Of a DNA stretch of 44,802 nt, positions 5,111 to 22,015 are shown one piece after another. Numbering within the stretch: position 1 is the first letter of the stretch; every line of letters begins with the position of its first letter. The notes below the pieces were generated by a model. That model saw nothing but the letters and a program-made list of their open reading frames with translations. It was not told the DNA's origin and did not search any database. Position numbers and translations under genes: made by a program. Source of the stretch: Phycisphaerales bacterium (lineage in GTDB: Bacteria > Planctomycetota > Phycisphaerae > Phycisphaerales > SM1A02); contig JAKVBT010000013.1 in assembly GCA_022446905.1 (NCBI GenBank), positions 44,136 to 88,937 of the forward strand, in the 5' to 3' direction.

Positions 5111-6319
5111 ATGACACGCCGCGCCGCCATCGTTTCCGCCTGCCGAACTCCATTTGGTCGATATGGAGGTGGCCTTAGTGGGGTTCGTCCTGACGATCTT
5201 GCCGCGCATGTGATTCGCCATGCAGTAGAAACCGCTGGCATTGACCCCACATCGATCGATGACGTCTACATGGGGGCAGCCAACCAGGCAGGAGAAGACA
5301 ATCGCAACGTCGCGCGCATGTCCGCCTTGCTGGCAGGCCTCCCGGTCACCGTCCCAGGAAGTACGGTTAATCGACTATGCGCCTCAGGCCTTGAAGCAGT
5401 CAACATTGCAGCCCGCATGATTGAAGCCGGTTCTGGAGATGTGTTTGTCGCCGGTGGCGTTGAAAGTATGAGTCGCGCCCCATTTGTCATGGCCAAGGGC
5501 GAGCGTGCATTTGATCGCAAACATGAAGTGCATGACACCACCATCGGTTGGCGATTCACCAATCCGGCGCTTGCCGCCATACACCATCCATATGGCATGG
5601 GTGAAACTGCCGAGAACGTGGCTCGAAAATATCAGATCACCCGTGAAGAACAAGATCGATTTGCACTACTCAGTCAACAGCGTTGGGCGTTGGCTCAGGA
5701 ACTTGGACAGTTTGAGGAAGAATTGCGTCCCCTCGATATTCCACAACGCAAGGGGGATCCATTGACGGTCGATGTGGATGAACACCCACGACCTGGAACC
5801 ACGCTTGAAGCCCTGGCCAAACTCCGACCCGCATTCGCCAAAGATGATCTTGGCACTGTGACTGCTGGCAACTCCAGCGGTGTCAATGATGGCGCCGCCG
5901 CATTGGTACTTATGGAAGCTGAGCGAGCCCATGCCGAAGGTCGAAATGTTCTCGCCTTGGTCGGACCATCTGCATCTGCTGGTGTTGATCCGGCCACGAT
6001 GGGGATCGGCCCTGTTCCCGCGACACGCAAAGCCCTTGATCGCGCTGGCTTGACCTGCCAAGACATCGGGCTCTTTGAACTCAATGAGGCCTTTGCCGCG
6101 CAATCCATCGCCTGCGTCCGTGACCTTGATCTCGATGTTGATCGAGTCAATGTCAAGGGTGGTGCCATTGCCATCGGTCATCCACTAGGCGCCAGCGGTG
6201 CTCGGCTGGCAACCACGCTGATTCATGAAATGAATCGTCGTGGATCTGACCGTGGTGTGGCTACACTCTGTGTAGGAGTCGGCCAAGGGCTGGCCACCGT
6301 GTTTGAACTGCCGGGCTGA
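5111..6319 (+). CDS. paaJ: Thiolase PaaJ (3-oxoadipyl-CoA / 3-oxo-5,6-dehydrosuberyl-CoA thiolase)
   Basis: This 402-residue thiolase has all three catalytic elements: acyl-accepting Cys90 in [10 protein letters not shown], His357 in [12 protein letters not shown] and Cys387 in TLCVGVGQG, plus the NEAFA motif. In the phenylacetate pathway it releases acetyl-CoA from both 3-oxo intermediates, the last giving succinyl-CoA. I chose the ATG at 5111 because the protein then begins [16 protein letters not shown], as thiolases normally do; an in-frame ATG at 5084 would add nine unlikely residues. The next gene, paaA, starts 28 bases downstream, so it heads the paaJ-paaABCD unit. PcaF, FadA and PaaJ are hard to separate by sequence alone, so the name rests partly on context. 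Confidence 0.87.
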
Positions 6320-6347: not shown

Positions 6348-7370
6348 ATGAGTGGCGCCGCCAACCCAGTCGCCCCGGCCGAAATCACGATCGACGAGGA
6401 TCCGGACCGTCTGGCCGAATTTGAACAACGCATTGCAGATGGCGTACTAATTGAGCCAGGCGACTGGATGCCAGAGGCCTATCGCCTGCTCCAACTGCGG
6501 ATGGCAGAGCACCATGCGAATTCGGAAATCGTCGGAGCCCTACCAGAGGGCGAATGGATTACTCGCGCGCCGGGAATGCTGCGCAAACTAGCGTTGACTG
6601 CCAAGGTGCAGGACGAGGTGGGCCATGGCCAGATGCTCTACCGCGTGTCCCAAGAACTTGGCAAGAGCCGAGACGACATGCTTCGTGATCTGGTGACAGG
6701 TAAAACTAAGTATCACAACTGTTTTAACTATCCCTGTCCGACGTGGGCTGATATTGCCATGGTCCAGTGGCTGATCGATGGCGCTGCGATCATGAACCAG
6801 AAGACACTCGCAGATGGCGCCTATGGTCCATATGTTCGGACCATGAATCGGATCAACATGGAAGAGGCCTTCCACTTCAAGAGCGGTGAAGACATGGTGC
6901 TCACGCTGATGAGTGGCACTAAGGCGCAAAAGGCGATGACACAAGAGGCTTTTGATCGATGGTGGACCATTGCGCTAGCTTTCTTTGGGCCCCATGACAA
7001 GCCCGGCGCCGAGGACATGCCCGCTATGCGATGGCGTATGAAGATTGAACGCAACGACTCGCTCCGACAGCGATTCGTCAACCGCTTCGCCCCCGCGGCC
7101 ATCGACCTTGGATTGGTCATCAATGTTGTGACTAAAAATGAACAAGGCCTTGTGACGTCTGCAACACCAGATGAGCAACTCGGCGTTGATGAGTCCACTG
7201 GTCAGTGGTCGTTCACAGAGCCCGACTGGGATGAATTCTGGAAGGTGATCCGCGGCCATGGACCATGCAACGCGCAGCGGCTGGCACTGAGACGATTCTC
7301 CTATGAGCAAGGCGCCTGGGTTCGCCGCGCCATTGCGCACGGAGCGGTGGTCACTCCACCGGCGGCCTGA
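6348..7370 (+). CDS. paaA: 1,2-phenylacetyl-CoA epoxidase, catalytic subunit PaaA
   Basis: PaaA is the di-iron catalytic subunit of the multicomponent monooxygenase that epoxidises the ring of phenylacetyl-CoA. The two ExxH iron-binding motifs are both present: KVQDEVGHG (Glu90, His93) and MEEAFHFKSGED (Glu173, His176). Other family stretches are FNYPCPTWADI and WLIDGAAIMNQ. At 340 residues it is slightly longer than the 309-residue E. coli protein, mainly through an N-terminal extension. An AGAGGA ribosome-binding site lies about 9 bases before the ATG. The paaB start codon follows the stop with no gap, which suggests translational coupling of subunits that must assemble together. Confidence 0.97.
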   Translation: MSGAANPVAPAEITIDEDPDRLAEFEQRIADGVLIEPGDWMPEAYRLLQLRMAEHHANSEIVGALPEGEWITRAPGMLRKLALTAKVQDEVGHGQMLYRVSQELGKSRDDMLRDLVTGKTKYHNCFNYPCPTWADIAMVQWLIDGAAIMNQKTLADGAYGPYVRTMNRINMEEAFHFKSGEDMVLTLMSGTKAQKAMTQEAFDRWWTIALAFFGPHDKPGAEDMPAMRWRMKIERNDSLRQRFVNRFAPAAIDLGLVINVVTKNEQGLVTSATPDEQLGVDESTGQWSFTEPDWDEFWKVIRGHGPCNAQRLALRRFSYEQGAWVRRAIAHGAVVTPPAA

Positions 7371-7979
7371 ATGTCGAAGATTCGCGAGCAAGCCCTCACA
7401 TTTGGCGAGGAACTGCCTCCCCCAACGCCTGACACAATGCATTGGGTGGTCTATACCTGCAAAAAACCGGGGGCTCCATTCAAATGGGCCGGCTATGTCG
7501 ATGCACCTGATGAAGCGCTCGCCCTGCAGTACGCGCGGGAGCACTATGGCCTCGATGAGGCATGTGTTGGACTCATCACGCACCGCCATGAGGACGCGAT
7601 TGATAGTGAATATGCGCTGAAAAACCTAGAGCCCATCGATGCGTCTGGGACCGATGGCGATGAATGGACGGTGCTGACGCTGAATCGAAGAGGCGGCAAT
7701 CACCAAACTGCTGGTGTCGTGCATGCACCCAATGCCAACACCGCGCTTGCCCGGGCCCAGGCATCGTTTGCCGGCTCCAAGGTCTGCAGCATTCGCGTTG
7801 TCAAGAGTAGTCAGGTTCTGGAAACCAACGAAGAAGAACTCCTGATCTGGCGCCACCACGACATGAGCTACAAACTCGCGCGTGGCTATAGCAAACAAGT
7901 ACGTTCCAAATGGACACGCATTCGAGATGAACAAACCTATGAAGACTATCGGCAAGAAGACATCGCCGATCATTTCTGA
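7371..7979 (+). CDS. paaB: 1,2-phenylacetyl-CoA epoxidase subunit PaaB, tandem two-domain form
   Basis: PaaB is the small non-catalytic subunit that bridges PaaAC heterodimers in the epoxidase. The E. coli form is about 95 residues; this one is 202. Residues 23-76 (beginning MHWVVYTCKKPG) and 96-152 (beginning DEWTVLTLNRRGG) each show the PaaB pattern: a beta strand, a GYV/GVV turn, an H/DAP-(N)-A--AL helix, then a strand ending ITHR or VVKSSQV. So the gene appears to be an internal tandem duplication or fusion. The second copy ends like canonical PaaB (LLIWRHHDMSYKL); a charged tail of about 30 residues follows. It begins directly after the paaA stop. Its position between paaA and paaC makes the assignment firm. 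Confidence 0.93.
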   Translation: MSKIREQALTFGEELPPPTPDTMHWVVYTCKKPGAPFKWAGYVDAPDEALALQYAREHYGLDEACVGLITHRHEDAIDSEYALKNLEPIDASGTDGDEWTVLTLNRRGGNHQTAGVVHAPNANTALARAQASFAGSKVCSIRVVKSSQVLETNEEELLIWRHHDMSYKLARGYSKQVRSKWTRIRDEQTYEDYRQEDIADHF

Positions 7980-7989
7980 GGCCACTTCA

Positions 7990-8760
7990 ATGACCATGCA
8001 GGACATGCTGAATGATCTACTGGCGAATGTCGTCTTGATGCACACAGACGACAAATTGATGCTTGGCCATATGCAGAGTGACTGGACAGGACTCGCACCG
8101 ATCCTCGAAGAAGACATTGCCGCTTCTGCCATGTCACAAGACGACCTGAGTCACGCCATGATTCTCATGGAGTGGCTATCTGAAAAGTATGGCTTAGATG
8201 TTGACTCTATTGGCTTTCGTCGCCGCGCCGAGGATTATCGCTGCTGCGATCTCGCAACTGTTCCAGATAATTTCGACTGGTCTGTATCGCTCGTCCGTCG
8301 CTGGCTTCTTGCAACATTCTCCTCAATTGGCATCGATCGACTCGCGACCACCGATGATGCTTCTCTCAGCGCTCGCTGTCGACGCATTCAAGATGAGCAG
8401 GCGATCCAACTCAAGTACCTATCCGCCTGGATGGTGCGATTGGGTTCGGGAACAGACGAGTCACGGGAACGTATGCAGACGGCCCTTGAGTTGTTGACTC
8501 CAGAAGCCGGCATGATGTTTGAGCCTCCCGATGCCACACTGTCTGACAAAGATGCCTGCTGCTCCGATCGCGATGATGTCTTCCAACAATGGATTGAAAT
8601 TGTCAGCCCAACGCTACGCGATGCTGGACTGACCACCACTTTTGAACTTCCTGACAGACAGGCGACTGGTGGCCGTCGTGGAATCCATGCTGCGCACTTC
8701 ATCGAGCAACTCGAAGAGATGACCGAGGTGATCGGCACCGATGCCGATGCATCATGGTGA
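7990..8760 (+). CDS. paaC: 1,2-phenylacetyl-CoA epoxidase structural subunit PaaC
   Basis: PaaC is a ferritin-like, catalytically inactive partner of PaaA that stabilises the epoxidase heterodimer. The clearest family signature is the C-terminal TGGRRGIHAAHFIEQLEEM, which matches TGGKKGLHTEHLGPMLAEM of E. coli PaaC, together with KYLSAWMVRLGSGTDES in the middle. I chose the ATG at 7990 (256 residues, beginning MTMQDML), 10 bases after the paaB stop; a longer frame back to 7882 overlaps paaB and adds 36 residues that look unlike the family. An in-frame ATG at 7996 is also possible. The stop overlaps the paaD start by 7 bases, indicating a tight operon. Confidence 0.92.
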   Translation: MTMQDMLNDLLANVVLMHTDDKLMLGHMQSDWTGLAPILEEDIAASAMSQDDLSHAMILMEWLSEKYGLDVDSIGFRRRAEDYRCCDLATVPDNFDWSVSLVRRWLLATFSSIGIDRLATTDDASLSARCRRIQDEQAIQLKYLSAWMVRLGSGTDESRERMQTALELLTPEAGMMFEPPDATLSDKDACCSDRDDVFQQWIEIVSPTLRDAGLTTTFELPDRQATGGRRGIHAAHFIEQLEEMTEVIGTDADASW

Positions 8761-9257
8761 CCAAAGACGACATTCATGCCGCACTTGAATTGGTGCCTGA
8801 CCCGGAACTGCCGGTCAGCATCGTAGAACTTGGGCTGGTTGAAGATGTCACCTGTGATGGCTCCAAAGCCATTATCGCGCTACTGCCAACATGGTCCGGA
8901 TGCCCTGCACTCCCAATGATCGAGTCAGATGTACGACAAAGAGTCAGTGCACTCGACGGCATCGATGTGTGTGAGGTGCAATGGCGGTATGAACCAGCAT
9001 GGACACCGGACCGCATCTCCGCTGATGGTCGCTCCAAACTCAAGGCACATGGAGTCACTACTCCCCAGGCTTGTGGGAGCAAGACGCTTCAGGCCGGGGT
9101 GTCCCTGACAACCTCAGCCATGAAATGCCCCTACTGTGGCTCAAATCAGACCAGGCTCGACAGTCCCTACGGGCCCACACGATGTCGGGCAATTTACTTC
9201 TGTGATGGATGCCGCAATCAGTTTGAGCACATGAAGCCACGGAGTACCAGCCTCTAA
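8754..9257 (+). CDS. paaD: PaaD, iron-sulfur/maturation protein for the epoxidase
   Basis: This 167-residue protein has an N-terminal MIP18/DUF59 domain (about residues 3-80, with DPELPVSIVELGLV) and a C-terminal zinc ribbon (CPYCGS near residue 124, CDGC near residue 151). This combination defines PaaD, which is essential for epoxidase activity in vivo and is thought to help install metal or iron-sulfur centres, probably in the reductase PaaE. The start overlaps paaC by 7 bases. In the usual paaABCDE order paaE would follow, but here 122 non-coding bases and an unrelated secreted-protein gene come next, so the reductase must be encoded elsewhere or replaced. Confidence 0.95.
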   Translation: MVTKDDIHAALELVPDPELPVSIVELGLVEDVTCDGSKAIIALLPTWSGCPALPMIESDVRQRVSALDGIDVCEVQWRYEPAWTPDRISADGRSKLKAHGVTTPQACGSKTLQAGVSLTTSAMKCPYCGSNQTRLDSPYGPTRCRAIYFCDGCRNQFEHMKPRSTSL

Positions 9258-10930: not shown

Positions 10931-12097
10931 ATGCCTGAAGCCAATCAACCAACTCGAGCGGAGCAGAACACCCCCTCCGAGGTCCCTCCACCGGGACATA
11001 TTGATGGCCCATTTGATTCCAGATCCATTGATCTGGGTCGAATTGAATCCCTGCAAGTGCTTGATGAGCATGGGCAGGTTGAAGACGGGCTTGACCCCAA
11101 GTATGACGATGAGACCCTGCTCAAGGTGCATCGAGCCATGGTGCTAACCCGGGCCTTTGATGCCCGCATGCTTGCTATGCAACGTCAGGGGCAGATGGGC
11201 ACCTTCGCACCCAATCTTGGGCAGGAAGCCTGCATGATCGGCCAAGTCTGGTCACTGGGTCCTGATGACTGGTTCGCCCCGTCCTACCGCTCATTTGGCG
11301 CCCAAATCTGGCGAGGTTGGTCGATGGAACACCTCATGAGGTTGTGGGCCGGGTACCACAGTGGCTTCCCTCCGCCAGACGGCGTGAAGGACTTGCCATT
11401 CTCCATTGTGATTGGTTCGCATGTACTTCCATCCGTGGGTTTGGCAATGGCAATGCGGCGTGCCCAAGACGCCCACTGCGCCGTTGTCAACTTCGGCGAT
11501 GGTGCATTCTCACAGGGATCGGTGTCTGAAGCGCTGAATTTTGCCGCGGTCGAACAGGCCCCGATTGTCTTCGTATGCGAAAACAATGGCTGGGCCATTT
11601 CAACACCCATCGACAAGCAGTCGGGCAATGATGTGCTCGCGACCCGTGGACTCGGATTTGGCGTGCGTTCATTACGTGTGGACGGCAATGACATTCTTGC
11701 CATGATGATGGCTACCCAGGAGGCTTGTCGCCGTGCTCGCGAGGGCCAGGGGCCCACCCTCATCGAAGCAGTGACCTATCGCATGAGTTTGCACACGACC
11801 GCTGATGATCCGAGCGTCTATCGCGACGAGTCACTGGTTGACGCATGGAAGAACCGCTGTCCGATTGCCCGATTTGAAACCTACCTCGCCAACAGAAATC
11901 TACTCTCCTCCGAACAAGCCGATCAGGTTCGCGCTGCATGTGAACAAGAAGTTCTCGATGCCCGCACCCAGTTTCGTGAGACCGCCGTTGCTGAGCCACG
12001 TCAGATCTTTGACCATCTCTATGCTGAGATGCCCGATGAACTGGAAGAACAGCGACTTGAGTATCTGCGGCGTCTTGACCGCAAAGGAGTGAAGTGA
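10931..12097 (+). CDS. pdhA: 2-oxoacid dehydrogenase E1 component, alpha subunit
   Basis: This is the thiamine-diphosphate-binding alpha subunit of a heterotetrameric 2-oxoacid dehydrogenase E1 (388 residues). The ThDP/Mg motif runs from FGDGAFSQG (Gly-Asp-Gly at 189-191) to ENN (Asn218-219), and the phosphorylation-loop region reads MSLHTTADDPSVYR. It resembles Gram-positive-type PdhA (MGTFAPNLGQEA, WFAPSYRSF) more than proteobacterial AceE. It decarboxylates a 2-oxoacid and passes the acyl group to E2. Pyruvate is the default substrate, but branched-chain or aromatic oxoacids cannot be excluded. The first roughly 60 residues are a polar extension, and no clear ribosome-binding site precedes the ATG. 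The stop overlaps the E1 beta ATG by one base. Confidence 0.9.
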   Translation: MPEANQPTRAEQNTPSEVPPPGHIDGPFDSRSIDLGRIESLQVLDEHGQVEDGLDPKYDDETLLKVHRAMVLTRAFDARMLAMQRQGQMGTFAPNLGQEACMIGQVWSLGPDDWFAPSYRSFGAQIWRGWSMEHLMRLWAGYHSGFPPPDGVKDLPFSIVIGSHVLPSVGLAMAMRRAQDAHCAVVNFGDGAFSQGSVSEALNFAAVEQAPIVFVCENNGWAISTPIDKQSGNDVLATRGLGFGVRSLRVDGNDILAMMMATQEACRRAREGQGPTLIEAVTYRMSLHTTADDPSVYRDESLVDAWKNRCPIARFETYLANRNLLSSEQADQVRAACEQEVLDARTQFRETAVAEPRQIFDHLYAEMPDELEEQRLEYLRRLDRKGVK

Positions 12098-13083
12098 TGC
12101 CATCGATCACTATGGTCGAATCACTGAATCTTGCGCTTGATGAAGCACTCGCGCAGGACAACCGGGTCTGCCTGATGGGTCAGGATATTGGTGTCAATGG
12201 CGGTGTCTTTCGTGTCACCAAGGGATTGCAGGCTCGATATGGGAAAGACCGTGTGATGGATTCTCCACTGGCTGAGTGCGGCATCATCGGCACCGCCGTG
12301 GGCATGGCCATCTACGGCATGAAGCCAATCGCTGAAATTCAATTCTCTGGGTTCTCGCTGCAGGCATTCGACCAAATCGAACAGAACATGTCTCGATTAC
12401 GCAACCGCACTCAAGGTCGATTTGAAATCAGCATGGTGATGCGTACGCCCTACGGCGGCGGGATCCGTGCAGTCGAACACCATAGTGAGTCACGGGAGAC
12501 CTACTGGGCCCACACACCAGGACTGAAAGTGGTTATTCCTTCCGGGCCACGCAATGCCAGATCCTTGCTTGCCGCTGCGATCGCAGACCCTGACCCAGTC
12601 GTCTTCTATGAACCGAAGTCGATTTACCGAGCGTTCCGTGAAGATGTTCCAGAAGAACCTGAGACCATGCCTCTAGGCAAGGCCCAGGTTGTTCGCCCCG
12701 GCGAAGACATCACCATCATTTCATATGGCGCCATGATCAGACCAGTCCGCGAAGCCGTGGATGACCTGAGTGATCAGCACGGCATTGATGTCGAACTTAT
12801 TGATCTGCTGACTATTTCCCCGATGGACACAACTACGCTGGTGGAGTCAGTCCGCAAAACCGGACGATGCATCGTCGTACACGAAGGCCACCGAACTTGC
12901 GGCATCGGCGCAGAAGTCGTTGCCCGACTCGCCGAACATGGCTCATTTGAATACCTTGTCGCGCCGCTGCGCAGACTGACGGCCCCTGACCTCCCCTTCC
13001 CCTACTTCCAAGTCGAACAGCACTTTCTTCCAGATCCCGACGACGTGGTTGAAACGGCTTGCGAGTTAATGAACTGGAACTGA
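12097..13083 (+). CDS. pdhB: 2-oxoacid dehydrogenase E1 component, beta subunit
   Basis: This is the transketolase-like beta subunit of E1 (328 residues). Family stretches include MGQDIGVNGGVFRVTKGLQ, DSPLAECGIIGTAVGMA, FSGFSLQAFDQI, TPYGGGIRAVEHHSES and the C-terminal HEGHRTCGIGAEV. I chose the ATG at 12097, which overlaps the E1 alpha stop by one base (TGATG); AAAGGAG lies 7 bases upstream, a strong ribosome-binding site that makes this start secure over the adjacent in-frame GTG at 12094. E2 starts 6 bases after the stop, so E1 alpha, E1 beta and E2 should be made in matched amounts from one message. Substrate preference cannot be read from the sequence. Confidence 0.92.
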   Translation: MPSITMVESLNLALDEALAQDNRVCLMGQDIGVNGGVFRVTKGLQARYGKDRVMDSPLAECGIIGTAVGMAIYGMKPIAEIQFSGFSLQAFDQIEQNMSRLRNRTQGRFEISMVMRTPYGGGIRAVEHHSESRETYWAHTPGLKVVIPSGPRNARSLLAAAIADPDPVVFYEPKSIYRAFREDVPEEPETMPLGKAQVVRPGEDITIISYGAMIRPVREAVDDLSDQHGIDVELIDLLTISPMDTTTLVESVRKTGRCIVVHEGHRTCGIGAEVVARLAEHGSFEYLVAPLRRLTAPDLPFPYFQVEQHFLPDPDDVVETACELMNWN

Positions 13084-13089
13084 GCGAAC

Positions 13090-14412
13090 ATGACCGCAGC
13101 AGTCCAACAAGAGTTTCGACTTCCTGATTTGGGTGAGGGTGTACACGAAGGCCGCATCATTCGCCTCCATGTTGTAGCAGGGCAGTCAGTCAACGAAGAC
13201 GAACCGCTCATGGAAGTTGAAACTGACAAAGCGGCGGTTGAGATCCCATCACCAGTGACCGGCATTGTGACCACCGTGCACATCGAGTCGGGTCAACTGG
13301 TCCATGTTGGCGATGTGATGATCACCTTTGACGGTGATAGCGGCGCACCACCAGATGCCGCAAGAGAAACGCCAATGGCCACCGCCTCGGCAGCAGCCAC
13401 ATCGGTAAGCGCAACAACACCAAGTGCCACCTCACCGACCCGACGCAAACCCGCGTCTCCATCTGTGCGCCGCATGGCCAGAGAACTCGGACTGTCAGTC
13501 CAAGACATTGCAGGATCCGGCCCTGGTGGACGGATCACTCGGGCAGATGTAGAGCGCGCGTCAAATACACCTGCTGCAGAATCCCCAATGCCCACGGCTG
13601 CTGCTGTAGTCCCTGCGACTGCAACACCGACGCCGATCGGCACACCGCAACCACCACTGCATTCGGTCACCACTCCAGGCATGGAATTGGAAGGTCAGCG
13701 CGATCAAGATGCCTATGGCGAAATTGTGCGCCAGGATCTGTCACAAGCCCGTAAGACCATTGCCCAGGTCATGCAGATCTCATGGCAGACGATCCCGCAC
13801 GTGACCGATTGCAATGATGCTGACATCACCAATCTTGAGGAGATGCGCCGCGGCTTTGTAGATCCAGAACGTCCAGACCGTAAAGTCACAACGCTCGCCT
13901 TTGTCATCCGAGCTATCTGTCGGGCGTTGCTCCGTCACCCCATTCTCAATGCAACAATTGATACGGATCGCCAAGAGGTGGTCTACCGCCAGTACATCAA
14001 CATCGGGATCGGTGTTGAAACACCGCGTGGGTTGGTAGCGCCCGTCATTCGCAATGCCCATCTCATGGGTGCTGGCGATATCGCTGACCACCTTGCGGTG
14101 ATCACGCACAATGCAAGATCGGGCCAGTTTGGTGTTGAAGACACCCGCGGCGCGACCTATGTGATCTCCAATGCCGGGGCCATGGGTCGAACCCGGTACT
14201 CGACGCCAATCATCATGCCTGGCACTGTGGCCTGTCTGGCGGTAGGTCGTGCACGCAAGATGCCATGGGTCGTAGATGATGAAATCGTGCCTCGGATCAT
14301 TCTGCCGCTCAGCCACTCCATGGATCACCGACTGGTCGATGGGGGTCGCGAAATCCCCTTTATTGAGCACCTCATCGATGATCTCGAACACCCGATGCGA
14401 TTTGCACTCTAG
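13090..14412 (+). CDS. pdhC: 2-oxoacid dehydrogenase E2, dihydrolipoamide acyltransferase
   Basis: This 440-residue E2 has one lipoyl domain (about 7-82, lipoylated Lys47 in EVETDKAAV), an Ala/Thr/Pro-rich linker, a peripheral subunit-binding domain (about 120-157, SPSVRRMARELGLSV and GSGPGGRITRADV), a second flexible linker and the catalytic acyltransferase domain from about 205. The active site HSMDHRLVDGG gives His413 and Asp417. It takes the acyl group from E1 onto lipoate and transfers it to CoA. The single lipoyl domain matches Gram-positive PDH and branched-chain complexes. No E3 follows directly; the candidate E3 gene is 1.3 kb downstream beyond a thioredoxin-like gene and a terminator. 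Confidence 0.93.
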   Translation: MTAAVQQEFRLPDLGEGVHEGRIIRLHVVAGQSVNEDEPLMEVETDKAAVEIPSPVTGIVTTVHIESGQLVHVGDVMITFDGDSGAPPDAARETPMATASAAATSVSATTPSATSPTRRKPASPSVRRMARELGLSVQDIAGSGPGGRITRADVERASNTPAAESPMPTAAAVVPATATPTPIGTPQPPLHSVTTPGMELEGQRDQDAYGEIVRQDLSQARKTIAQVMQISWQTIPHVTDCNDADITNLEEMRRGFVDPERPDRKVTTLAFVIRAICRALLRHPILNATIDTDRQEVVYRQYINIGIGVETPRGLVAPVIRNAHLMGAGDIADHLAVITHNARSGQFGVEDTRGATYVISNAGAMGRTRYSTPIIMPGTVACLAVGRARKMPWVVDDEIVPRIILPLSHSMDHRLVDGGREIPFIEHLIDDLEHPMRFAL

Positions 14413-14472
14413 CGCAGCATCAATCGATGCAATTGAAGGCCCAATTGAAGCGTTCCTGCTATCGTGGACCGC

Positions 14473-14490
14473 TTGGGCATCTCTGCCCAA
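14473..14490 (+). repeat. 7-bp hairpin in the leader of the TlpA-like gene
   Basis: TTGGGCA (14473-14479) and TGCCCAA (14484-14490) form a perfect stem with a TCTC loop. It sits between the E2 stop and the TlpA-like gene, 20 bases before that gene's ATG. No T-run follows, so it may trim or stabilise the message rather than terminate it. Confidence 0.4.
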
Positions 14491-14510
14491 AGACCGAAAG
14501 GAAGAACCTT

Positions 14511-15587
14511 ATGAACCGACTCATTACGACTGCTGCTGCATTTGCTTGCAGCCTATCAACGGTAACCATCGCGCAGAACAGCGCACCCACGCTGAGCATT
14601 GGCGACAAGGCGCCCGAGATCAAGGTTGCCAAGTTCTACAACGGAACGCCCGTCAACCAGTTCGCCCCCGGCAAGGCCTATGTCATGGAATTCTGGGCTA
14701 CGTGGTGCGGACCTTGCATCGCGCAAATCCCGCATCTTGCCAAATTGCAGAAGACCTACGCTGATGCCGGCATCACTGTCATGAGCACTGCCGTCTGGCA
14801 ACGGGAAAAGACCCAGGAAGATCAAGAAAAGGCGGTAGGTGATTTCGTCAAGTCCAAAGACGGCGCCATGGCTTACACGATCGCAATCGATGACAACGGC
14901 TGGATGGCTGAGCACTGGATGAAAGCTGCCGGCCAGAATGGCATTCCTGCAGCATTCCTTGTTGGCAAAACCGGAATCATTGAATGGATCGGCCATCCTG
15001 CAACCATCGACAGCGTGATGACCCAATATGTCGCCGGTGAATGGGATGCGCAGAAGGCCAAGGAAGAAATGGCCAAAGAACAGGAACGAGAACGACAGTT
15101 CATGGAAGTCATGATGCCGATTCGTCAGGCCATGATGAGCAATGATCGAGACGCAGTGCTCGCCGCATTTAAAACAGCCGACGAAAAGATGCCTAATGAC
15201 ACAACGATCATGGGCATGCAATTCGAGTATCTGATTACCGACACGACAACTTGTGATCAGGGCTATGCCATTGGCCGAAAGATGATGGAAAAGAACTGGG
15301 ACAATCCGAATCTCTTGAATTCGATTGCTTGGACAGTGGCCGACGACCCTGATGTAGCCCATCGCGATCTTGATTTCGCCATGAAGGCCGCCAATCGAGG
15401 CGTCGAACTGACCGAATCCAAGGACGCTTCCATTCTTGACACACTTGCCCGCATCTACTGGGAGCAAGGTGTGCAAGCGAAAGCCAAAGCCATCGCTTGG
15501 CAAGAAAAAGCCGTGGCGGCTTCAGAGGTCGGCCCGATGAAAGACTCGCTGGAGGCCACACTGGCCGGATACACCGAGTCCGACTGA
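14511..15587 (+). CDS. Secreted TlpA-like thioredoxin-fold protein with helical C-terminal region
   Basis: The ATG at 14511 (AAAGGAAG about 7 bases upstream) gives 358 residues starting with a signal peptide, MNRLITTAAAFACSLSTVTIAQ. Residues 25-170 form a TlpA/AhpC-type thioredoxin domain with WATWCGPC (Cys66 and Cys69) and the later cis-Pro region NGIPAAFLVGKTG. Residues 185-358 are helical and TPR-like (LDTLARIYWEQG). The family reduces or isomerises disulfides outside the cytoplasm, for example in cytochrome maturation. An in-frame ATG at 14427 would remove the N-terminal signal and has no ribosome-binding site. It lies between the E2 and E3-like genes, but a secreted protein is unlikely to be part of the cytoplasmic complex. 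Confidence 0.88.
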   Translation: MNRLITTAAAFACSLSTVTIAQNSAPTLSIGDKAPEIKVAKFYNGTPVNQFAPGKAYVMEFWATWCGPCIAQIPHLAKLQKTYADAGITVMSTAVWQREKTQEDQEKAVGDFVKSKDGAMAYTIAIDDNGWMAEHWMKAAGQNGIPAAFLVGKTGIIEWIGHPATIDSVMTQYVAGEWDAQKAKEEMAKEQERERQFMEVMMPIRQAMMSNDRDAVLAAFKTADEKMPNDTTIMGMQFEYLITDTTTCDQGYAIGRKMMEKNWDNPNLLNSIAWTVADDPDVAHRDLDFAMKAANRGVELTESKDASILDTLARIYWEQGVQAKAKAIAWQEKAVAASEVGPMKDSLEATLAGYTESD

Positions 15588-15611
15588 CACAGCCCCCTCA
15601 CGAGAATATTC

Positions 15612-15645
15612 CGAGCCCCTGTCCATATGGACAGGGGCTCGTTTC
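15612..15645 (+). terminator. Strong intrinsic terminator after the TlpA-like gene
   Basis: A perfect 30-base palindrome (15612-15641) has arms CGAGCCCCTGTCC and GGACAGGGGCTCG around ATAT, followed by TTTC. It lies 25 bases after the TlpA-like stop and should end the E1-E2-TlpA transcript. It also rules out the ATG at 15627 as the start of the next gene, since that codon lies inside the hairpin. Confidence 0.85.
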
Positions 15646-15695
15646 ATCATGCGGGGAGCCGTCAATCCGAGTCCAATGCCTCTACAGTGTGTGCC

Positions 15696-16994
15696 ATGGT
15701 GGTCGGAGAGTTCACTCAGGATGCCGACGTAGTTGTGATCGGCGCAGGGCCTGCGGGCTACAGTTGCGCCTTTGCAGCTGCAGAGGCTGGACACGAAGTC
15801 ACACTGGTGGATCCAAACGCTACGCCCGGCGGACAATGTCTGACACAAGCATGTATTCCAAGCAAGGCCATGCTACATGTTGCGGCAAGTGCTGCCACAG
15901 CTACGAGTGCCGGTCTCACTGGCAACCCACTCACTATAGATCCCAGCTCGGTTGAGTCTTGGGTCAAACGATGTACGAACCGACTTGGCAAGGGTCTCGC
16001 AGGTGCTGCAGACCAACGGCGGATCACACAATTGCGAGGACAGGCGCGATTTCTCAGCAATCGAGAAATTCAAGTGGCTGGCGAAGAGGTAATTCGCCTG
16101 CGATTTAAGCGTGCCGTTGTTTGCACCGGGAGTCGTCCAAGCCCACACCCAGAATTATCAAATCACCAATCGGTGTGTACCCCCGAAGCCCTGGCTGTTG
16201 ACCCTTCACTGGCTGTTGGACGCGTCGTCGTGGTTGGACACGATGTCGTCGCCGTCGAATCAGCCATCATGGCCCAAGCACTGGGTGCCAAAGTCAGCTT
16301 GCACACCAATGGATCCGTACTACTACCTGATATCCCCACAGAGTTGCGGGATGCAGTCCTGCAATTCAACCACATTGAAGTGGATACTGCAGCCTGGTCA
16401 ACACCGCCGCAAGCAGATCTTGTTGTTGATGCCGCTAGAAGACAAGCAAACATTGAACACTTGGACCTCCATGTGACGGACGTTCAAGTCAAGGACAACT
16501 GGATCCTCACTGATGCTCACCTCAAGACACAAGCAGGTCGCATCTTGGCTGCTGGAGATTGTGCTGGGCCTCCCTTGTGGGCCGGAGCAGCCTTAGCGCA
16601 GGGACGGATAGCTGCAGAATCCATTGATGGCCAAGGGTACTGGGAACCCGCCAGTGTGCCACGCGTGCTCTTTGGTCCTGTAGAAATGAGTTGGTCAGGC
16701 GATGCAGCGGATGAAGCGGATGTTGGAACCATCAGCGTGCCGTGGTCATACAGCGGCCTCGCTGTTGCCAAAGGCGCCGCACAAGGACTGACCCATCTCC
16801 GCTGGGACCGCACTCATGGAACGATCATTGGGGCTGGCGCCGTCGGACGCGGCGCCGCTGAATTTGCGACAGCGGCAACCCTCGTTGTCGAACTGGGTGC
16901 GACGCTACAAGATCTTGCTGACATGGTTCCAGCGCACCCGACCTGTAGCGAGCTATTGCTTGAAGCGGCCCAACAAGCATTGTCGGAGTCATAG
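15696..16994 (+). CDS. lpdA: Divergent dihydrolipoamide dehydrogenase (E3)-like flavoprotein
   Basis: This 432-residue flavoprotein has the FAD motif VVVIGAGPAGY (12-22), the redox disulfide CLTQACIPSK (Cys48, Cys53) and the E3-type C-terminal HPTCSE (His414, Glu419), so the catalytic core matches dihydrolipoamide dehydrogenase, which reoxidises E2 lipoate with NAD. The NAD-binding motif is degenerate: where E3 has GGGxxG, this has GHDVVA (VVVVGHDVVAVE, near 16216-16260). The NAD domain is also short. NADH formation is therefore uncertain, and a related disulfide oxidoreductase role is possible. I chose ATG 15696; a GTG at 15687 is in frame, and the longer frame to 15627 runs into the terminator. 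The stop overlaps a GTG three bases before the next gene's ATG. Confidence 0.78.
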   Translation: MVVGEFTQDADVVVIGAGPAGYSCAFAAAEAGHEVTLVDPNATPGGQCLTQACIPSKAMLHVAASAATATSAGLTGNPLTIDPSSVESWVKRCTNRLGKGLAGAADQRRITQLRGQARFLSNREIQVAGEEVIRLRFKRAVVCTGSRPSPHPELSNHQSVCTPEALAVDPSLAVGRVVVVGHDVVAVESAIMAQALGAKVSLHTNGSVLLPDIPTELRDAVLQFNHIEVDTAAWSTPPQADLVVDAARRQANIEHLDLHVTDVQVKDNWILTDAHLKTQAGRILAAGDCAGPPLWAGAALAQGRIAAESIDGQGYWEPASVPRVLFGPVEMSWSGDAADEADVGTISVPWSYSGLAVAKGAAQGLTHLRWDRTHGTIIGAGAVGRGAAEFATAATLVVELGATLQDLADMVPAHPTCSELLLEAAQQALSES

Positions 16995-16996
16995 TG

Positions 16997-17473
16997 ATGG
17001 AAGAAGGAAAGCCACTCTTTGGCCGCTTCATGCTCTTCTTGTTTGTATCGCAAGCGATGTTCATCGGAGGCATCGTGGCGCTCATGACTGCTAATCCAAC
17101 GATTTCATCAAGCTTGATCAGTGTTGGGAGCCCTTTGATCATCCTGATAACGCTGCATTTGGCATTTCGCTGGCTATGGAACCGAATGACCTCTCCATTT
17201 CCACCACAAGAAATGCATCACACTGCAGAGCATCGCCATTTTCAGTCGTTTTCTTGGGGCTATGTCAATATGGGGCTGAGCATTCATGCTGCCGTAGATG
17301 ACACATATCTCCATATGGAACCACTTCTGCTCTGGCGAGTGCTCGGCGCCAACTCAGCGAGCATCCCTTTTTCGTCTATGACACCAGCGGAGCGTGGACG
17401 AGGTGTCCGCATCAATGGCATGACCATGATGGGACCGAAGTGGTGTTTTCAAAAACTTGAGAAAAGCAAATAA
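16997..17473 (+). CDS. Small membrane protein with two predicted helices, function unknown
   Basis: I do not recognise a named family. The 158 residues contain two hydrophobic helices (about 11-31, FMLFLFVSQAMFIGGIVALM, and 38-61) and then a roughly 100-residue polar domain. That domain ends in a beta-rich segment (LLLWRVLGANSASIPFSSM ... GVRINGMTMMGPKWCF) that vaguely recalls bacterial PH-like domains on membrane proteins. The ATG at 16997 begins two bases after the flavoprotein stop; the GTG at 16994 overlapping that stop is an alternative. The tight spacing means it is cotranscribed with the E3-like gene. It ends 4 bases from the converging paaY stop. Confidence 0.7.
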   Translation: MEEGKPLFGRFMLFLFVSQAMFIGGIVALMTANPTISSSLISVGSPLIILITLHLAFRWLWNRMTSPFPPQEMHHTAEHRHFQSFSWGYVNMGLSIHAAVDDTYLHMEPLLLWRVLGANSASIPFSSMTPAERGRGVRINGMTMMGPKWCFQKLEKSK

Positions 17474-17477
17474 GCAA

Positions 17478-18083
17478 TCAGTCGCGACTGGTGCGCTTCG
17501 TCTCGTATAGAACATCGGGCACGCGCTGGCCCATTCGGGTGTCATCGGCTTCGGCAAGAGGCTCAACTTCGCTCTCAGTTGCTTGATGCCGCGCAGCCAG
17601 ATACTGGTAGACATCAGTCCCTCTGGACTTCCAGCCGATCTCCTCGGCAGTGAGTTCCTTAATTTGCCTTGCCGGTGATCCAGCCCACAGCGTCCCAGCT
17701 GGGATCTCCGTTCGCTCCTTCACAAAAGCAAGCGCACCGACGATGCTGTTCTCCCCCACATGCACATCATCCATCAGTACTGCATTCATACCGATCAGAG
17801 CATTACGCCCGACTGTGCATCCATGCAGCACCGCACCGTGCCCTACATGACCATGTTCATGCACGATGACATCCTTACCTGGGAAACAGTGCACAACACA
17901 GGTGTCCTGAATGTTGCTTCCAGCCTCCATGATGAGCCGACCGATGTCACCACGAAGCACGGCACATGGACCCACTAGACATCTCGGGCCCACATGCACA
18001 TCCCCAATCAGTACCGCAGACGGATGCACAAAGGCATCCGGGTGTACGACGGGTGTAATGCCTTCGTAACTGAAGCAGGGCAT
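17478..18083 (-). CDS. paaY: PaaY, left-handed beta-helix thioesterase/gamma carbonic anhydrase family
   Basis: This 201-residue hexapeptide-repeat protein matches PaaY along its length: ITPVVHPDAFVHPSAVLIGDV, RGDIGRLIMEAGSNIQD, HGHVGHGAVLHGC, ALIGMNAVLMDDV, ENSIVGALAFVK and the C-terminal AEEIGWKSRGTDVYQYLAAR. The metal-binding histidines of gamma-type carbonic anhydrases are present (HCFPG, HVGHGAVLHG). In enterobacteria PaaY is a thioesterase that hydrolyses dead-end CoA adducts such as 2-hydroxycyclohepta-1,4,6-triene-1-formyl-CoA, freeing CoA. Its ATG overlaps the paaN stop by one base (TGATG), so the two are translationally coupled. It is the second gene of a paaN-paaY operon. Confidence 0.92.
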   Translation of the reverse strand: MPCFSYEGITPVVHPDAFVHPSAVLIGDVHVGPRCLVGPCAVLRGDIGRLIMEAGSNIQDTCVVHCFPGKDVIVHEHGHVGHGAVLHGCTVGRNALIGMNAVLMDDVHVGENSIVGALAFVKERTEIPAGTLWAGSPARQIKELTAEEIGWKSRGTDVYQYLAARHQATESEVEPLAEADDTRMGQRVPDVLYETKRTSRD

Positions 18084-19780
18084 CAGCCCACAACCTCTTC
18101 AACTTGCGAAGGAACAAATGTCCGACTCGCAACCATGCGGAAGCGATCTGCCACAAATGCTGCATCGCACAAAGTGGCGTTGCCAGCAGGATTGGCACCT
18201 GAGACATGAAAGTCGCTAAATGCAGCGGACTGATTGATCCAGATCTGACCGGCAAGATTGCAGGAGGTTGCCACCCCCGCATCGGTCAGCGCCTCAACAG
18301 CCTTCTCCTGCACCTGCGGATCACCAGTCCACACACCCGCGGTCAATCCACCTTGTTGACGGGCCGAGTCAGCAGCAAGTTCGATGGACTCTGCAGTACT
18401 CGAGGTTCGCACGACATACACAATGGGGCCGAAGGCCTCCGAGCGCCACGATGGATCATCAGCTTCGACTTGCACAATCAGCGGCGTTGCCGTTCGCGCC
18501 GATGGAAATCTTTCATTTTCTATTGCTGATGAAGAACGGAGCACAGTATCTGCGTCACGTGAAATTGAACTGACCCTTGCAGCAGTAGCTTCTGACTGAA
18601 TCGCACCGAGCACTTCCGCAGCACGGGCGGGGTCGGACACAAACCAATCAACCGCCTTGACAATCGCTCCAACAACTTCGTCGAATCCCAGCATCCCTTC
18701 CGGACCGCGAATTCCCGACTCGGGAATAAAGATATTTTGAGGTGTCGTACACATCTGACCGGAAAAGAGACAGAGTGAGAAAGCGATATTTCCTGTCACA
18801 GCCCGCAAATCTTCAACACCATCCAAAATGATCGAGTTCACGCCTGCCTTTTCGCTGTAGACCCGCGCCTGGGTTGCATTGGACTCAATCCAATCACCAA
18901 AGACATTGCCACCAGTGAAGTCCACGATGCGAATCTCATCGCGGATCACAAGATCCTGCGCCACTGGCTGCTCCACAGAATCGCATGCCAGAGTGACCAG
19001 ATTGGGATCAAAGCCAGCGTCCCGCAACACTGCCCTGGCAGTCTCTACGGTAATTGCCAACGGCAACACAGCGCCGGGATGTGGCTTAACCATGACAGCA
19101 TTCCCTGTCATGAGACTTGCAAACAAGCCGGGGTAGCCATTCCAAGTCGGGAAGGTTGAGCACCCGATGTTGGCAGCAATGCCACGTGGAACCACGCGCC
19201 AAGTCTTGTCGAGAGTCACGACTTCCGTCTTTGATACCTTCTTTGTCCAAGTCGCCTCACGCGGGCATCGGGTCATTTCACGCCAGGCGTATGCGACTGC
19301 TTCAAGACCTCGATCCTGCGCATGCGGACCACCTGCCTGAAATGCCATCATGAATCCTTGACCAGTGGTGTGCATGACAGCCAGCGCCATTTCAAAAGAC
19401 TGCGCATTCAATCGGCTCAGAATTTCTAAACAAACTCCAGTGCGATCCTCAATCGATGCCCGCTTCCAGCTATCCATGGCACTGGTAGCTGCGGGAATGA
19501 GCACATCAAGATCGACCCGGGGATAACGGATTCCCGTTTCGATGCCATATGGCGACTGCTCGGTATCAACCCATTCAGTGACACCAGGCTGTTCCAGATC
19601 GAACTGACCTCCGAGTCGCGCTTTCCATGCAGCCATCCCCTCGTCTCGGGCGGTCTCGCCATAGATCCGCCCACTGGGCACCTCGGGATAAGCCGACCAG
19701 AAAGTGCGTGCGTCAATCGCTTCAAGAGCGCCGTTAAGCCTCTCACGATGTGTGTCCAGCCAATTCGTCGTCACGGGCAT
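18083..19780 (-). CDS. paaN: PaaN, aldehyde dehydrogenase family protein of phenylacetate degradation
   Basis: This 565-residue protein matches the PaaN aldehyde-dehydrogenase type found in phenylacetate clusters. It has the ALDH nucleotide loop DFTGGNVFG (288-295), the general-base Glu310 in YSEKAGVNS and the catalytic Cys344 in FSGQMCTTPQN. About 90 extra N-terminal residues precede the ALDH fold, as expected for PaaN. In organisms lacking PaaZ, PaaN is thought to oxidise the ring-opened semialdehyde to 3-oxo-5,6-dehydrosuberyl-CoA, with ring hydrolysis supplied by a separate hydratase. No PaaZ or MaoC-like hydratase is in this window. AAGGAG lies 5 bases before the ATG. It is divergent from a permease gene with 114 bases between. 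Confidence 0.92.
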   Translation of the reverse strand: MPVTTNWLDTHRERLNGALEAIDARTFWSAYPEVPSGRIYGETARDEGMAAWKARLGGQFDLEQPGVTEWVDTEQSPYGIETGIRYPRVDLDVLIPAATSAMDSWKRASIEDRTGVCLEILSRLNAQSFEMALAVMHTTGQGFMMAFQAGGPHAQDRGLEAVAYAWREMTRCPREATWTKKVSKTEVVTLDKTWRVVPRGIAANIGCSTFPTWNGYPGLFASLMTGNAVMVKPHPGAVLPLAITVETARAVLRDAGFDPNLVTLACDSVEQPVAQDLVIRDEIRIVDFTGGNVFGDWIESNATQARVYSEKAGVNSIILDGVEDLRAVTGNIAFSLCLFSGQMCTTPQNIFIPESGIRGPEGMLGFDEVVGAIVKAVDWFVSDPARAAEVLGAIQSEATAARVSSISRDADTVLRSSSAIENERFPSARTATPLIVQVEADDPSWRSEAFGPIVYVVRTSSTAESIELAADSARQQGGLTAGVWTGDPQVQEKAVEALTDAGVATSCNLAGQIWINQSAAFSDFHVSGANPAGNATLCDAAFVADRFRMVASRTFVPSQVEEVVG

Positions 19781-19894: not shown

Positions 19895-22015
19895 ATGGCA
19901 CCTGCAGCACAGTCCGGCACGTTGCGCAAAGAGATCACACTCTTTGGCGTCTTTGCAATTGCACTTGGCACCACTGTCAGTGGCGGCCTCTTTTTGCTTC
20001 CAGGCATCGCCTTTGAAAAGATCGGCCCAGCCATTCTGCTGGCCTATCTGCTGGCCGGACTGGTCGCCCTGCCCCCGCTGCTGTGCATGTCCGAGTTGGC
20101 CACAGCGATGCCTCGAGCAGGCGGATTCTACTTCTACGTCGATCGTGCCTTCGGACCGTTGGCCGGCACTGTCGCTGGTATCGGGACCTGGCTGACCCTG
20201 ACGCTCAAAACTGCTTTCGCGCTGGTTGGCTCGGGCTACTACCTCGGCCTCTTCATGGATGATCCACCAGTCACCCTGATTGCGGCGGTCTTGGCAGTCG
20301 CCTTTGGCTTGCTCAATCTCATGGGCGCTGGCAAGGCAAGTTGGATGCAGTCAGCGTTGGTCATTGCTGTCTTGGCGATTCTCGCCTGGTTCATCGCCTT
20401 CGGTAGCCCGGAAATCAACACAACCCACTTCGAAGGACTCTGGTCCACCAGCGGAAGTGCTGTTGCCTCCATGATTGGCGTGGTTCTGATCTCATACATG
20501 GGACTGACCAAAGTGGCGAGTGTCGCTGAAGAAGTACGCAATCCTGAACGGAACATCCCGAAAGGCATTCTGCTTGCACTGGTTGCAGCCATTCTGATTT
20601 ACATGGCCGCCCTGGCGATCATGATCGGAATCATTCCAGCTGATGAACTCTCCAGCACCTACACACCCGCCGCCGTCGCCGCTGAATACTTCTCGGGATC
20701 TGTCGGCACCATCGTGATTTCAATTGCTGCCATCGCATCCTTCCTTGCGGTAGCCAATGCTGGCATCTTGAGCGCGTCCCGCTATCCACTGGCTATGGGA
20801 CGAGATCACATCTTCCCGAGTCTCTTCCGCAGGCTTGGGAAAATGGGTACTCCAGCCCCCGCGATCTTCCTCACTGTCGCACTGGTTGTGGTCGAAGTAC
20901 TGCTCCTCGATCCTTTGGTTATTGCCAAGTATGCCGGCACAATCCAACTGGTGATCTTTGCTGCCTTGTGCGCCGCAGTGATCATCATGCGTGAAAGTCG
21001 GCTCAACTCCTATGACCCTGGTTTTCGCGTGCCCTTCTATCCTTGGATGCCGCTCATCGGCATCGTGCTTTCCCTCACAGCCGTTGTGCTGCTCGGGTGG
21101 ATTCCTGTGCTCTTCACACTCGGGATGATCGTCATCGCAGTGATGTGGTTCCATTGGTATGCAGCACGTAGAAGTCGACGTTATGGCGCCATCTTTCATG
21201 TATTTGCGCGGCTCGGAGAAAATCGATTTGACCCATTGGATGTGGAACTTCGTGGCATCATCAAAGAGAAGGGCCTACGGGCAGCAGATCCTTTTGAACA
21301 AATCATCGCGCATGCCAGATTTATCGATGCAGATCAAAACGACGATTTTGAATCACTTATTCAGAAGGCCAGCGAGTCACTGGCGGGCGAAACCCGCCGC
21401 GGCACTGAGCACTTCATGGATGGCTTTCATGAAGGAACGCGTGTAGGCGCGACACCCGTTGCCGGGGGAGTGGCATTGCCACACATGCGCCTTGATGGAC
21501 TCGATCGCTCTCACTTAGTGCTTGTGCGATGTCGGGAGGAATTGCAGATTGAATTGGGCAGCGGCGTCCCTGGAAGCCACTCAGTCATCGGCGTACACGC
21601 GATTTTCTTCATGGCCAGTCCAGAGTCAGATCCAACCCAACATCTGCGACTGCTTGCCAGCCTCGCTGGAGCAGTGGAACAAGATGGTTTCATGGATCAC
21701 TGGCTCAGCGCGAATGGCCCCACCGAAATCAAGCATGCCCTCCTGCGAAGCGAATACAGCCTCACGCTCCGTATCGACCAGGACACGACCACACGCGTAT
21801 GGCTCAACCAGTCCATTGCTGAACTCAAGTTGGCCGAAGGCATCCTGGTCGCGCTGGTGTATCGTGACGGCCAACGCCTGATCCCGACTGGACGTACGGT
21901 TCTAATGGAGAACGACCGCGTCATCCTGATCGGAGAACCCGAAGAGATCATGGCGCTGCGATCACAACTTCAACTCGACTCGCCCACTGGAACATCCCCG
22001 GAGACCATGTCATGA
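19895..22015 (+). CDS. APC-family permease fused to PTS EIIA-like and RCK_C-like domains
   Basis: Residues 1-425 form a 12-helix APC amino-acid permease: the first helix has the GTTVSGGLFLLPG substrate motif, and the second-helix region has MPRAGGFYFYVDRAFGP. A cytoplasmic linker follows. Residues about 470-620 resemble a PTS EIIA type-2 (PtsN-like) domain with the would-be phosphorylated His in GGVALPHMR (codon at 21482). Residues about 635-695 resemble an RCK_C/TrkA-C ligand-binding domain (ENDRVILIGEPEEI). Such tails could gate transport according to PTS or nucleotide signals. The substrate is unknown; divergence from paaN makes an aromatic compound or amino acid plausible. The stop overlaps the next ATG (ATGA). 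Confidence 0.87.
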   Translation: MAPAAQSGTLRKEITLFGVFAIALGTTVSGGLFLLPGIAFEKIGPAILLAYLLAGLVALPPLLCMSELATAMPRAGGFYFYVDRAFGPLAGTVAGIGTWLTLTLKTAFALVGSGYYLGLFMDDPPVTLIAAVLAVAFGLLNLMGAGKASWMQSALVIAVLAILAWFIAFGSPEINTTHFEGLWSTSGSAVASMIGVVLISYMGLTKVASVAEEVRNPERNIPKGILLALVAAILIYMAALAIMIGIIPADELSSTYTPAAVAAEYFSGSVGTIVISIAAIASFLAVANAGILSASRYPLAMGRDHIFPSLFRRLGKMGTPAPAIFLTVALVVVEVLLLDPLVIAKYAGTIQLVIFAALCAAVIIMRESRLNSYDPGFRVPFYPWMPLIGIVLSLTAVVLLGWIPVLFTLGMIVIAVMWFHWYAARRSRRYGAIFHVFARLGENRFDPLDVELRGIIKEKGLRAADPFEQIIAHARFIDADQNDDFESLIQKASESLAGETRRGTEHFMDGFHEGTRVGATPVAGGVALPHMRLDGLDRSHLVLVRCREELQIELGSGVPGSHSVIGVHAIFFMASPESDPTQHLRLLASLAGAVEQDGFMDHWLSANGPTEIKHALLRSEYSLTLRIDQDTTTRVWLNQSIAELKLAEGILVALVYRDGQRLIPTGRTVLMENDRVILIGEPEEIMALRSQLQLDSPTGTSPETMS

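Follow-up and report, generated by a model that had tools for sequence, protein, structure and literature searches.

A 2-oxoacid dehydrogenase complex encoded among phenylacetate catabolism genes of Phycisphaerales: a candidate direct route from phenylpyruvate to phenylacetyl-CoA

The stretch of DNA analyzed here (hereafter the window: 44,802 nucleotides, C5:44136-88937 of a 2.58 Mb genome of a Phycisphaerales bacterium in 79 contigs, 96% complete) contains genes of the aerobic phenylacetate (paa) pathway together with genes for a 2-oxoacid dehydrogenase complex. Gene identities were assigned by profile searches of open reading frame (ORF) translations, using the curated cut-offs of NCBIfam/TIGR models and the Pfam gathering scores. 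On the contig, the cluster encodes, in this order, a FlK-type thioesterase, a PaaF-like hydratase, PaaG, PaaH, a Ser/Thr kinase (opposite strand), PaaJ, PaaA, PaaB, PaaC and PaaD, followed by an FG-GAP protein, the E1α, E1β and E2 subunits of the dehydrogenase, a TlpA-like thioredoxin, an E3-like protein, a small ORF, PaaY and PaaN (both on the opposite strand) and an amino acid permease (Table 1). A preliminary description made from the DNA alone had already placed E1α, E1β, E2 and an E3-like gene between paaJABCD and paaN-paaY, and the profile matches confirm this order, although the thioredoxin-like gene had been omitted and the E3-like gene is in fact degenerate. The parts of this locus are ordinary, and it is their arrangement that is unusual and very conserved.

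The E1α, E1β and E2 domains all exceed the Pfam gathering scores, which places the complex in the pyruvate dehydrogenase (PDH)-type family (E1α2β2-E2), and the thiamine motif of E1α (GDG 189-191, NN 218-219) and the HRLVDG motif of E2 can be read from the sequences. Nevertheless, E1α reaches the threshold of neither model for PDH proper, falling just short for TIGR03181 (Table 1) and scoring 196.3 bits, with 393.85 required, for TIGR03182. Because TIGR03181 is passed both by the E1α ortholog of a distant planctomycete, G175 (432.4 bits), and by the C12 E1 of the window genome (424.8 bits), this model does not separate functions. Assignment to the branched-chain dehydrogenases (BCKDH) is not indicated either, considering the paa context and the separation from human BCKDH (E1α) and Pseudomonas putida BCKDH (E1β). 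Thus, the complex shares with PDH and BCKDH (E1α2β2) the E1 and E2 domains and the catalytic motifs and differs from them in forming a clade of its own, in being tied to paaA and in having a degenerate E3 subunit.

The Pfam model of E1 matches five places in the genome, that in the window included, and the possibility that this is the only PDH-type complex of the organism is thereby rejected. The E1α-E1β-E2 genes at C45:134716 encode a PDH (426.4 bits, above the TIGR03182 cut-off), the gene at C45:155403 encodes a 2-oxoglutarate dehydrogenase (1132.9 bits, cut-off 764), and a third E1, accompanied by E1β and E2, is found at C12:13670 in the vicinity of a Glu/Leu/Phe/Val dehydrogenase, an acyl-CoA dehydrogenase and two genes of the enoyl-CoA hydratase family; the remaining match (C1:16375) is partial, with 39 bits. 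The C12 complex looks like a component of amino acid catabolism, and we take it to be branched-chain by its context only. The best NCBIfam match of the amino acid dehydrogenase at this locus (L277:7212-15629) is the tryptophan dehydrogenase ScyB (312.9 bits, below the cut-off of 600). A single lipoamide dehydrogenase over the cut-off is encoded in the genome (C14, 523.1 bits).

Evidence on the role of the complex in the window comes from its distribution. We searched 151 genomes of the same GTDB family with the E1α protein and the PaaA model, defining E1 orthologs as those with at least 58% identity, fragments included. Such orthologs are present in 53 of the 57 genomes with a PaaA match (a match below the cut-off in 4 of these) and in none of the 94 genomes without one (Fisher p = 1.8e-36, kinship ignored). 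E1 and paaA are found on the same contig in 42 of the 53 genomes, with the match starts 2.4-6.3 kb apart in 41; in the exception, G009, paaA is located 511 kb from E1, yet E1 adjoins paaBCD. Among the four genomes that contain PaaA and lack the E1 ortholog, the contigs of G071 and G148 break off within the cluster, paaA and paaBCD are separated in G061 (500 contigs, 76% complete), and G112 holds only a 58-bit fragment of PaaA. In all 20 loci fetched from relatives, E1α is embedded in paa genes whose relative order does not change within the limits of the contigs, with variation in the thioredoxin, FG-GAP and small ORFs. The same location of E1α was observed in all 32 named Planctomycetota loci with an ortholog, which are labelled as metagenome-assembled genomes of Phycisphaerales, Phycisphaerae or Planctomycetota, many of them shared with the family survey. 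The E1-paa neighborhood is more than a chance association.

Beyond the family, a survey of 392 genomes of the phylum detected PaaA over the cut-off in 10, of which 7 encode the E1 ortholog: four members of the family (the window genome included), G451 and G515 from another family of the order, and G175, a member of another planctomycete class that shares only the phylum with the window genome. The PaaA of G175 is of a different type (554 bits, compared with 375 for that of the window; 48% identity), and the locus encompasses genes for PaaA, PaaC, PaaD, PaaE (459.3 bits) and the PaaX regulator (276.6 bits), the latter two over their cut-offs, followed by E1α (53% identity), E1β (62%), E2 and an intact E3. 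PaaX is a repressor that responds to phenylacetyl-CoA. Three genomes have PaaA and no E1 ortholog. G257 shows a PaaK-like match that scores 576 bits; G221 and G444, with 96 and 18.7 bits, respectively, are less complete, so that the contrast between PaaK and E1 amounts to one clean case, not three. We also looked for E1-paa linkage beyond the planctomycetes. The scan, which gave 80 named loci, relied on two short peptides typical of the Phycisphaerales clade, a design that could hardly find other types of E1-paa association. The 48 loci with distant E1s (at most 41% identity) show no PaaA match in their flanks (0/48); in some of them, members of the PaaG, PaaJ or PaaN families, all of which are common, are found at 22-43% identity. 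Five E1s encoded on haloarchaeal plasmids have no annotated paa gene in the stretches covered by the plasmid gene table, which is incomplete. On a plasmid of Deinococcus psychrotolerans (L292), an E1α-E1β-thioesterase-E2 operon is located about 8 kb from paaABCD-paaZ; given that another Deinococcus has a similar operon without paa genes in the stretch shown, we attach no weight to this linkage.

In a phylogenetic tree of E1α (67 rows), the 24 paa-linked rows included, a chosen subset, form a single clade with 100/100 support, with G175 at its base, separate from the PDH and the C12 E1 of the same genome, Bacillus PDH and human BCKDH. A tree of E1β built by a quick method recovers the same clade (99% SH-aLRT), although G175 is nested inside it with weak support, unlike in the E1α tree. 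Four sister rows join the paa-linked clade (94/85 and 82). For two of these four, the contig extends far enough to reveal an E1-E2-E3 operon devoid of paa genes, and the paa-linked complex therefore probably descends from a PDH-type operon. Several residues are near-fixed in the clade and rare outside it, among them S121 (23/24) and F122 (22/24) of E1α, adjacent to a Tyr-Arg pair that we take to be thiamine-binding, N187 (24/24), immediately before GDG, and W138 and Y172 of E1β (23/23 each); near-fixed changes are also found near the E1β His. These residues might line the substrate pocket.

The canonical aerobic paa pathway is represented in the window by PaaA, PaaC, PaaD and PaaN, all over their cut-offs, and by relatives of PaaB, PaaG, PaaH, PaaJ and PaaY, in one cluster. 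PaaB is below the TIGR cut-off and above the Pfam score, so that the match to the PaaABCD epoxidase extends to all four subunits. The differences from the canonical pathway are the proposed entry through a 2-oxoacid dehydrogenase and the lack of PaaK and PaaE over the cut-off. The preliminary description had noted that there is no PaaK in the window, and in the entire genome the PaaK model gives a single match, of 36.5 bits (cut-off 646.3); PaaK over the cut-off was likewise found in 0 of the 151 family genomes and 0 of 6 further genomes. Models of IorA, Biopterin_H (phenylalanine hydroxylase) and PaaE were run against 18 genomes (17 with E1, plus G257) and 14 controls. IorA is over the cut-off in none of the 18 (best score 52 bits) and in 2 controls, and Biopterin_H has a match in none of the 18 and in 1 control. 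With neither phenylalanine hydroxylation nor the ferredoxin-dependent route detected, the complex is the evident candidate for supplying phenylacetyl-CoA. PaaE (33.6 bits in the window genome) exceeds the cut-off only in G175 among the 18 genomes, in none of the 16 E1-bearing genomes of the order, the window genome included, and in none of the controls. Its absence alone does not set the locus apart from the canonical pathway because three of the controls have PaaA over the cut-off and lack PaaE over the cut-off as well.

Enzymes with a comparable proposed activity have been described. In the biosynthesis of the phenylglycine of pristinamycin in Streptomyces, PglB/PglC, a PDH-like E1, is proposed to convert phenylpyruvate to phenylacetyl-CoA (PMC7089894). 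Both this system and the complex in the window are thus PDH-type E1α/E1β pairs with phenylpyruvate as the proposed substrate; the Pgl system is biosynthetic, and the five pgl genes named for it include no E2 or E3 (PMC7089894). A pgl-like operon of Streptomyces xanthii, identified as such by us (L291), encodes E1α and E1β that are 39% and 46% identical, respectively, to those of the window. In a tree-free comparison of the printed stretches, no shared diagnostic residues were found, which argues against orthology with PglB/PglC. The operon (L291, 8619-14496, on a plasmid) comprises genes for a hydratase/isomerase family protein, E1α, E1β, a hydrolase, MbtH and an aminotransferase and is flanked by nonribosomal peptide synthetase genes. 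The ferredoxin oxidoreductases IorAB and VOR convert arylpyruvate to arylacetyl-CoA (PMC5109826, PMC13290082), the same net reaction as that proposed here, catalyzed by a different class of enzymes for which, as indicated above, IorA searches of all 18 genomes gave nothing over the cut-off.

The genomic evidence is strong and makes it quite probable that the locus specifies a dehydrogenase complex dedicated to an arylpyruvate, most likely phenylpyruvate, and feeding the epoxidase. Phenylalanine would be deaminated to phenylpyruvate, and E1α2β2, with its thiamine diphosphate, would decarboxylate the latter; the phenylacetyl group would then reach CoA by way of the E2 lipoyl arm, and the phenylacetyl-CoA would pass directly to PaaABC(D), PaaG, PaaN, PaaF/H and PaaJ. 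Under this scheme, the pathway would begin at phenylalanine rather than at free phenylacetate, and PaaK would not be needed. The dihydrolipoyl groups would probably be reoxidized by the ordinary lipoamide dehydrogenase of the genome, the local E3 copy having turned into a flavoprotein partner of another kind. The amino acid permease beside paaN fits this reading, and a 2-oxoacid is not known to be used anywhere else in the paa pathway. A direct route from phenylpyruvate to phenylacetyl-CoA had been suggested in the preliminary description, and the linkage, the co-occurrence, the separate clade and the lack of PaaK over the cut-off all support it, with the substrate inferred from them, so that the reading is supported and not proven. 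Three observations had been named in advance as counting against the idea, namely that this complex would be the only one of PDH type in the genome, that its E1 would clearly fall in the PDH clade and show no aromatic activity and that the linkage to paa genes would not be conserved; none of these was made.

Several points weigh against this interpretation. The genomes are related, so that the p value is only a guide and the two-by-two count is not independent of phylogeny. The nearest profile of E1α is still that labelled 'PDH x' (405.6 bits), which the G175 ortholog passes, and two of the four sister rows belong to operons without paa genes. The clade-specific residues are absent from the PglB/PglC homolog, a PDH-type E1 for which phenylpyruvate has been proposed, and hence lend no support to the substrate assignment. 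The PaaK model has a strict cut-off, which is exceeded by a single one of the 14 controls and not by the 576-bit match of G257. PaaK-like enzymes with 154-244 bits are encoded in six E1-bearing genomes (180 bits in G057, followed by G024 and G009; 176 in G515; 154 in G451; 244 in G175) and weak matches to the ligase family exist in the window genome itself, so that another ligase could activate phenylacetate. G221 and G444, both incomplete, carry PaaA and lack an E1 ortholog as well as a convincing PaaK match. Finally, the Glu/Leu/Phe/Val dehydrogenase family represented at C12 also includes phenylalanine dehydrogenases, and the C12 complex could therefore itself accept aromatic oxoacids.

One alternative is a second PDH that accompanies the paa cluster, perhaps keeping the supply of acetyl-CoA or CoA in balance while aromatics are degraded. 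The TIGR03181 profile and the sister operons are in line with this explanation, as is the closest solved E1 structure, a PDH that we take to be that of Bacillus stearothermophilus. We nevertheless consider it unlikely because the genome already encodes a PDH that passes the TIGR03182 cut-off, because a second one would be useful without paa genes, yet 0 of the 94 PaaA-less genomes retain an E1 of the window type, and because of the near-fixed changes next to the Tyr-Arg pair and the E1β His. It is about as unlikely that the complex is a second branched-chain or broad-range 2-oxoacid dehydrogenase (for Val, Leu, Ile, Met and perhaps Phe), with phenylpyruvate as one of several substrates, given that C12 already holds an E1-E2 set surrounded by amino acid dehydrogenase, acyl-CoA dehydrogenase and hydratase family genes and that the paa-linked E1 is tied to paaA. 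The permease is compatible with such a specificity, and a parallel comes from Streptomyces rimosus, where E1/E2 genes annotated as branched-chain α-keto acid dehydrogenase rise together with paaCDE and a phenylacetate-CoA ligase gene is located elsewhere (PMC10612213); judging from the nearby locus tags, these E1/E2 genes appear to be adjacent to paaCDE. Very improbable, in our view, is a complex unrelated to phenylacetyl-CoA supply, with phenylacetate activated by an unrecognized acyl-CoA ligase and the linkage arising because the cluster was inherited or transferred as one unit. The PaaK-like enzymes and the weak PaaK-family match listed above could be invoked in its favor; conversely, the gene order is kept across many genera, E1 accompanies a PaaA of another type in G175, and the link persists in G009 despite the distant paaA.

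The E3-like gene calls for a separate discussion. The identification of its product (15627-16994) as an ordinary dihydrolipoyl dehydrogenase was rejected because the score is below the TIGR01350 cut-off and the NAD-domain GxGxxG motif is not intact (VVGHDVVAVESA); CX4C and HPT..E are retained, and we refer to the protein as pseudo-E3. The pseudo-E3 proteins have kept the FAD motif and begin with MVVGEF or a close variant of it; counted from MVVGEF, the copy in the window has 432 residues, compared with 462 in G175, whose E3 is complete (490.6 bits, over the cut-off). We examined 36 distinct full-length copies (38 distinct rows minus two cut ones, with identical rows merged). The strict GxGxxG is present in 2 of these (G175 and L264) and lost in 34, and the looser GxGxx[G/A] is found in 12; both redox cysteines are present in 28 copies, one is lost in 2 and both in 6; the H..E pair is found in 28. 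Cysteine-less copies of one group keep GxGxxA, which indicates that the loss is mosaic rather than orderly. A further E3-like copy is located at L248:14309-15694. Of 14 pairs of pseudo-E3, the 13 that give a finite dN/dS ratio have values of 0.09-0.21, and three pairs drawn from the group without the cysteines have 0.11-0.15; for comparison, the ratio of E1α is 0.05-0.17 in 11 of 14 pairs. Saturation of dS is close in several cases. Thus, pseudo-E3 is under purifying selection despite the decay of its NAD site. An AlphaFold model (predicted local distance difference test score 91.9) has the E3 fold, with the Escherichia coli E3 (4jq9) among the top structural matches (template modeling scores 0.86/0.80).

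The plain reading of these features is that pseudo-E3 would be a structural or regulatory partner of E2. A bolder proposal, which we rate as very improbable, is that it does not reduce NAD+ and instead passes electrons from dihydrolipoyl groups, or from another donor, to the phenylacetyl-CoA epoxidase in place of PaaE; phenylpyruvate oxidation would then directly pay for ring epoxidation. The lack of PaaE over the cut-off in the 16 genomes of the order and the intact E3 of the PaaE-encoding G175 are consistent with this proposal, as is the purifying selection on pseudo-E3. Against it, PaaE is also not over the cut-off in G257, which has no such E1, and in all 14 controls, the PaaA-bearing ones included, so that its absence needs no pseudo-E3 substitute; moreover, six copies lack both redox cysteines, and the contrast between PaaE and E3 comes from a single genome.

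Among the other genes of the neighborhood, the thioredoxin is probably exported and not a member of the complex, as suggested by its signal peptide-like start. PaaB is about twice as long as the respective models (89-90 positions) and matches PF06243 in two stretches; it is perhaps a duplicated PaaB. The true start of paaC is probably downstream of the listed GTG. A Ser/Thr kinase gene is found near the same place between paaH and paaJ in several, not all, relatives. The permease gene adjoins paaN in 9 of the 20 fetched loci. No instance was observed in genus g19, and several of the other loci stop short of this position.

Table 1. Genes and features of the window, with profile scores and curated cut-offs in bits
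Feature	Position	Strand	Remarks
paaG, C-terminal part only	10..474	+	gene begins before the window; farther upstream on the contig, genes for a PaaF-like protein and a FlK-type thioesterase
paaH-like 3-hydroxyacyl-CoA dehydrogenase	484..1689	+	TIGR02279 393.3, below 669.4
Large Ser/Thr kinase, between paaH and paaJ	1696-4974	opposite	
paaJ/pcaF-like 3-oxoadipyl-CoA thiolase	5084..6319	+	TIGR02430 542.9, below 597
paaA, phenylacetyl-CoA epoxidase subunit	6348..7370	+	TIGR02156 377.6, over 280
paaB, long form, 202 aa	7371..7979	+	60.5, below 85.45; PF06243 over gathering score
paaC	7882..8760	+	143.2, over 133.35
paaD	8754..9257	+	153.7, over 108.15
FG-GAP repeat protein	9359-10804		
E1α of the paa-linked 2-oxoacid dehydrogenase	10931..12097	+	PF00676; TIGR03181 405.6, just below 411.35
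E1β	12094..13083	+	transketolase domains; overlaps E1α by 4 bases
E2	13090..14412	+	one lipoyl domain plus E3-binding and acyltransferase domains, the latter with HRLVDG
TlpA/ResA-like thioredoxin	14427..15587	+	CGPC motif; start resembles a signal peptide (judged by eye)
E3-derived flavoprotein (pseudo-E3)	15627..16994	+	TIGR01350 239.4, below 408.8; conserved start MVVGEFTQD at 15696
Small 159-aa protein	16994..17473	+	no family match; present in many, not all, of the loci
paaY-like hexapeptide protein	17478..18083	-	270.3, below 319.6
paaN aldehyde dehydrogenase	18083..19780	-	770, over 578.75
APC-family amino acid permease	19895..22015	+	C-terminal PTS EIIA-like and TrkA-C domains
LPMO_10 with CBM2 domain	27684-29093		possible exported polysaccharide monooxygenase

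None of the listings obtained from an open-licence library describes such a route, which is weak evidence of novelty. If the proposed function is correct, uncultured Phycisphaerales, many of them with marine sample names, would channel phenylalanine aerobically into the phenylacetyl-CoA pathway without a ligase, through a lipoate-dependent complex, and the ATP spent by PaaK would be saved. It would also provide a likely substrate for E1 genes that would be called pyruvate dehydrogenase in automatic annotation. The pseudo-E3, in turn, is a case open to testing in which an E3 has been retained while its NAD site decayed.

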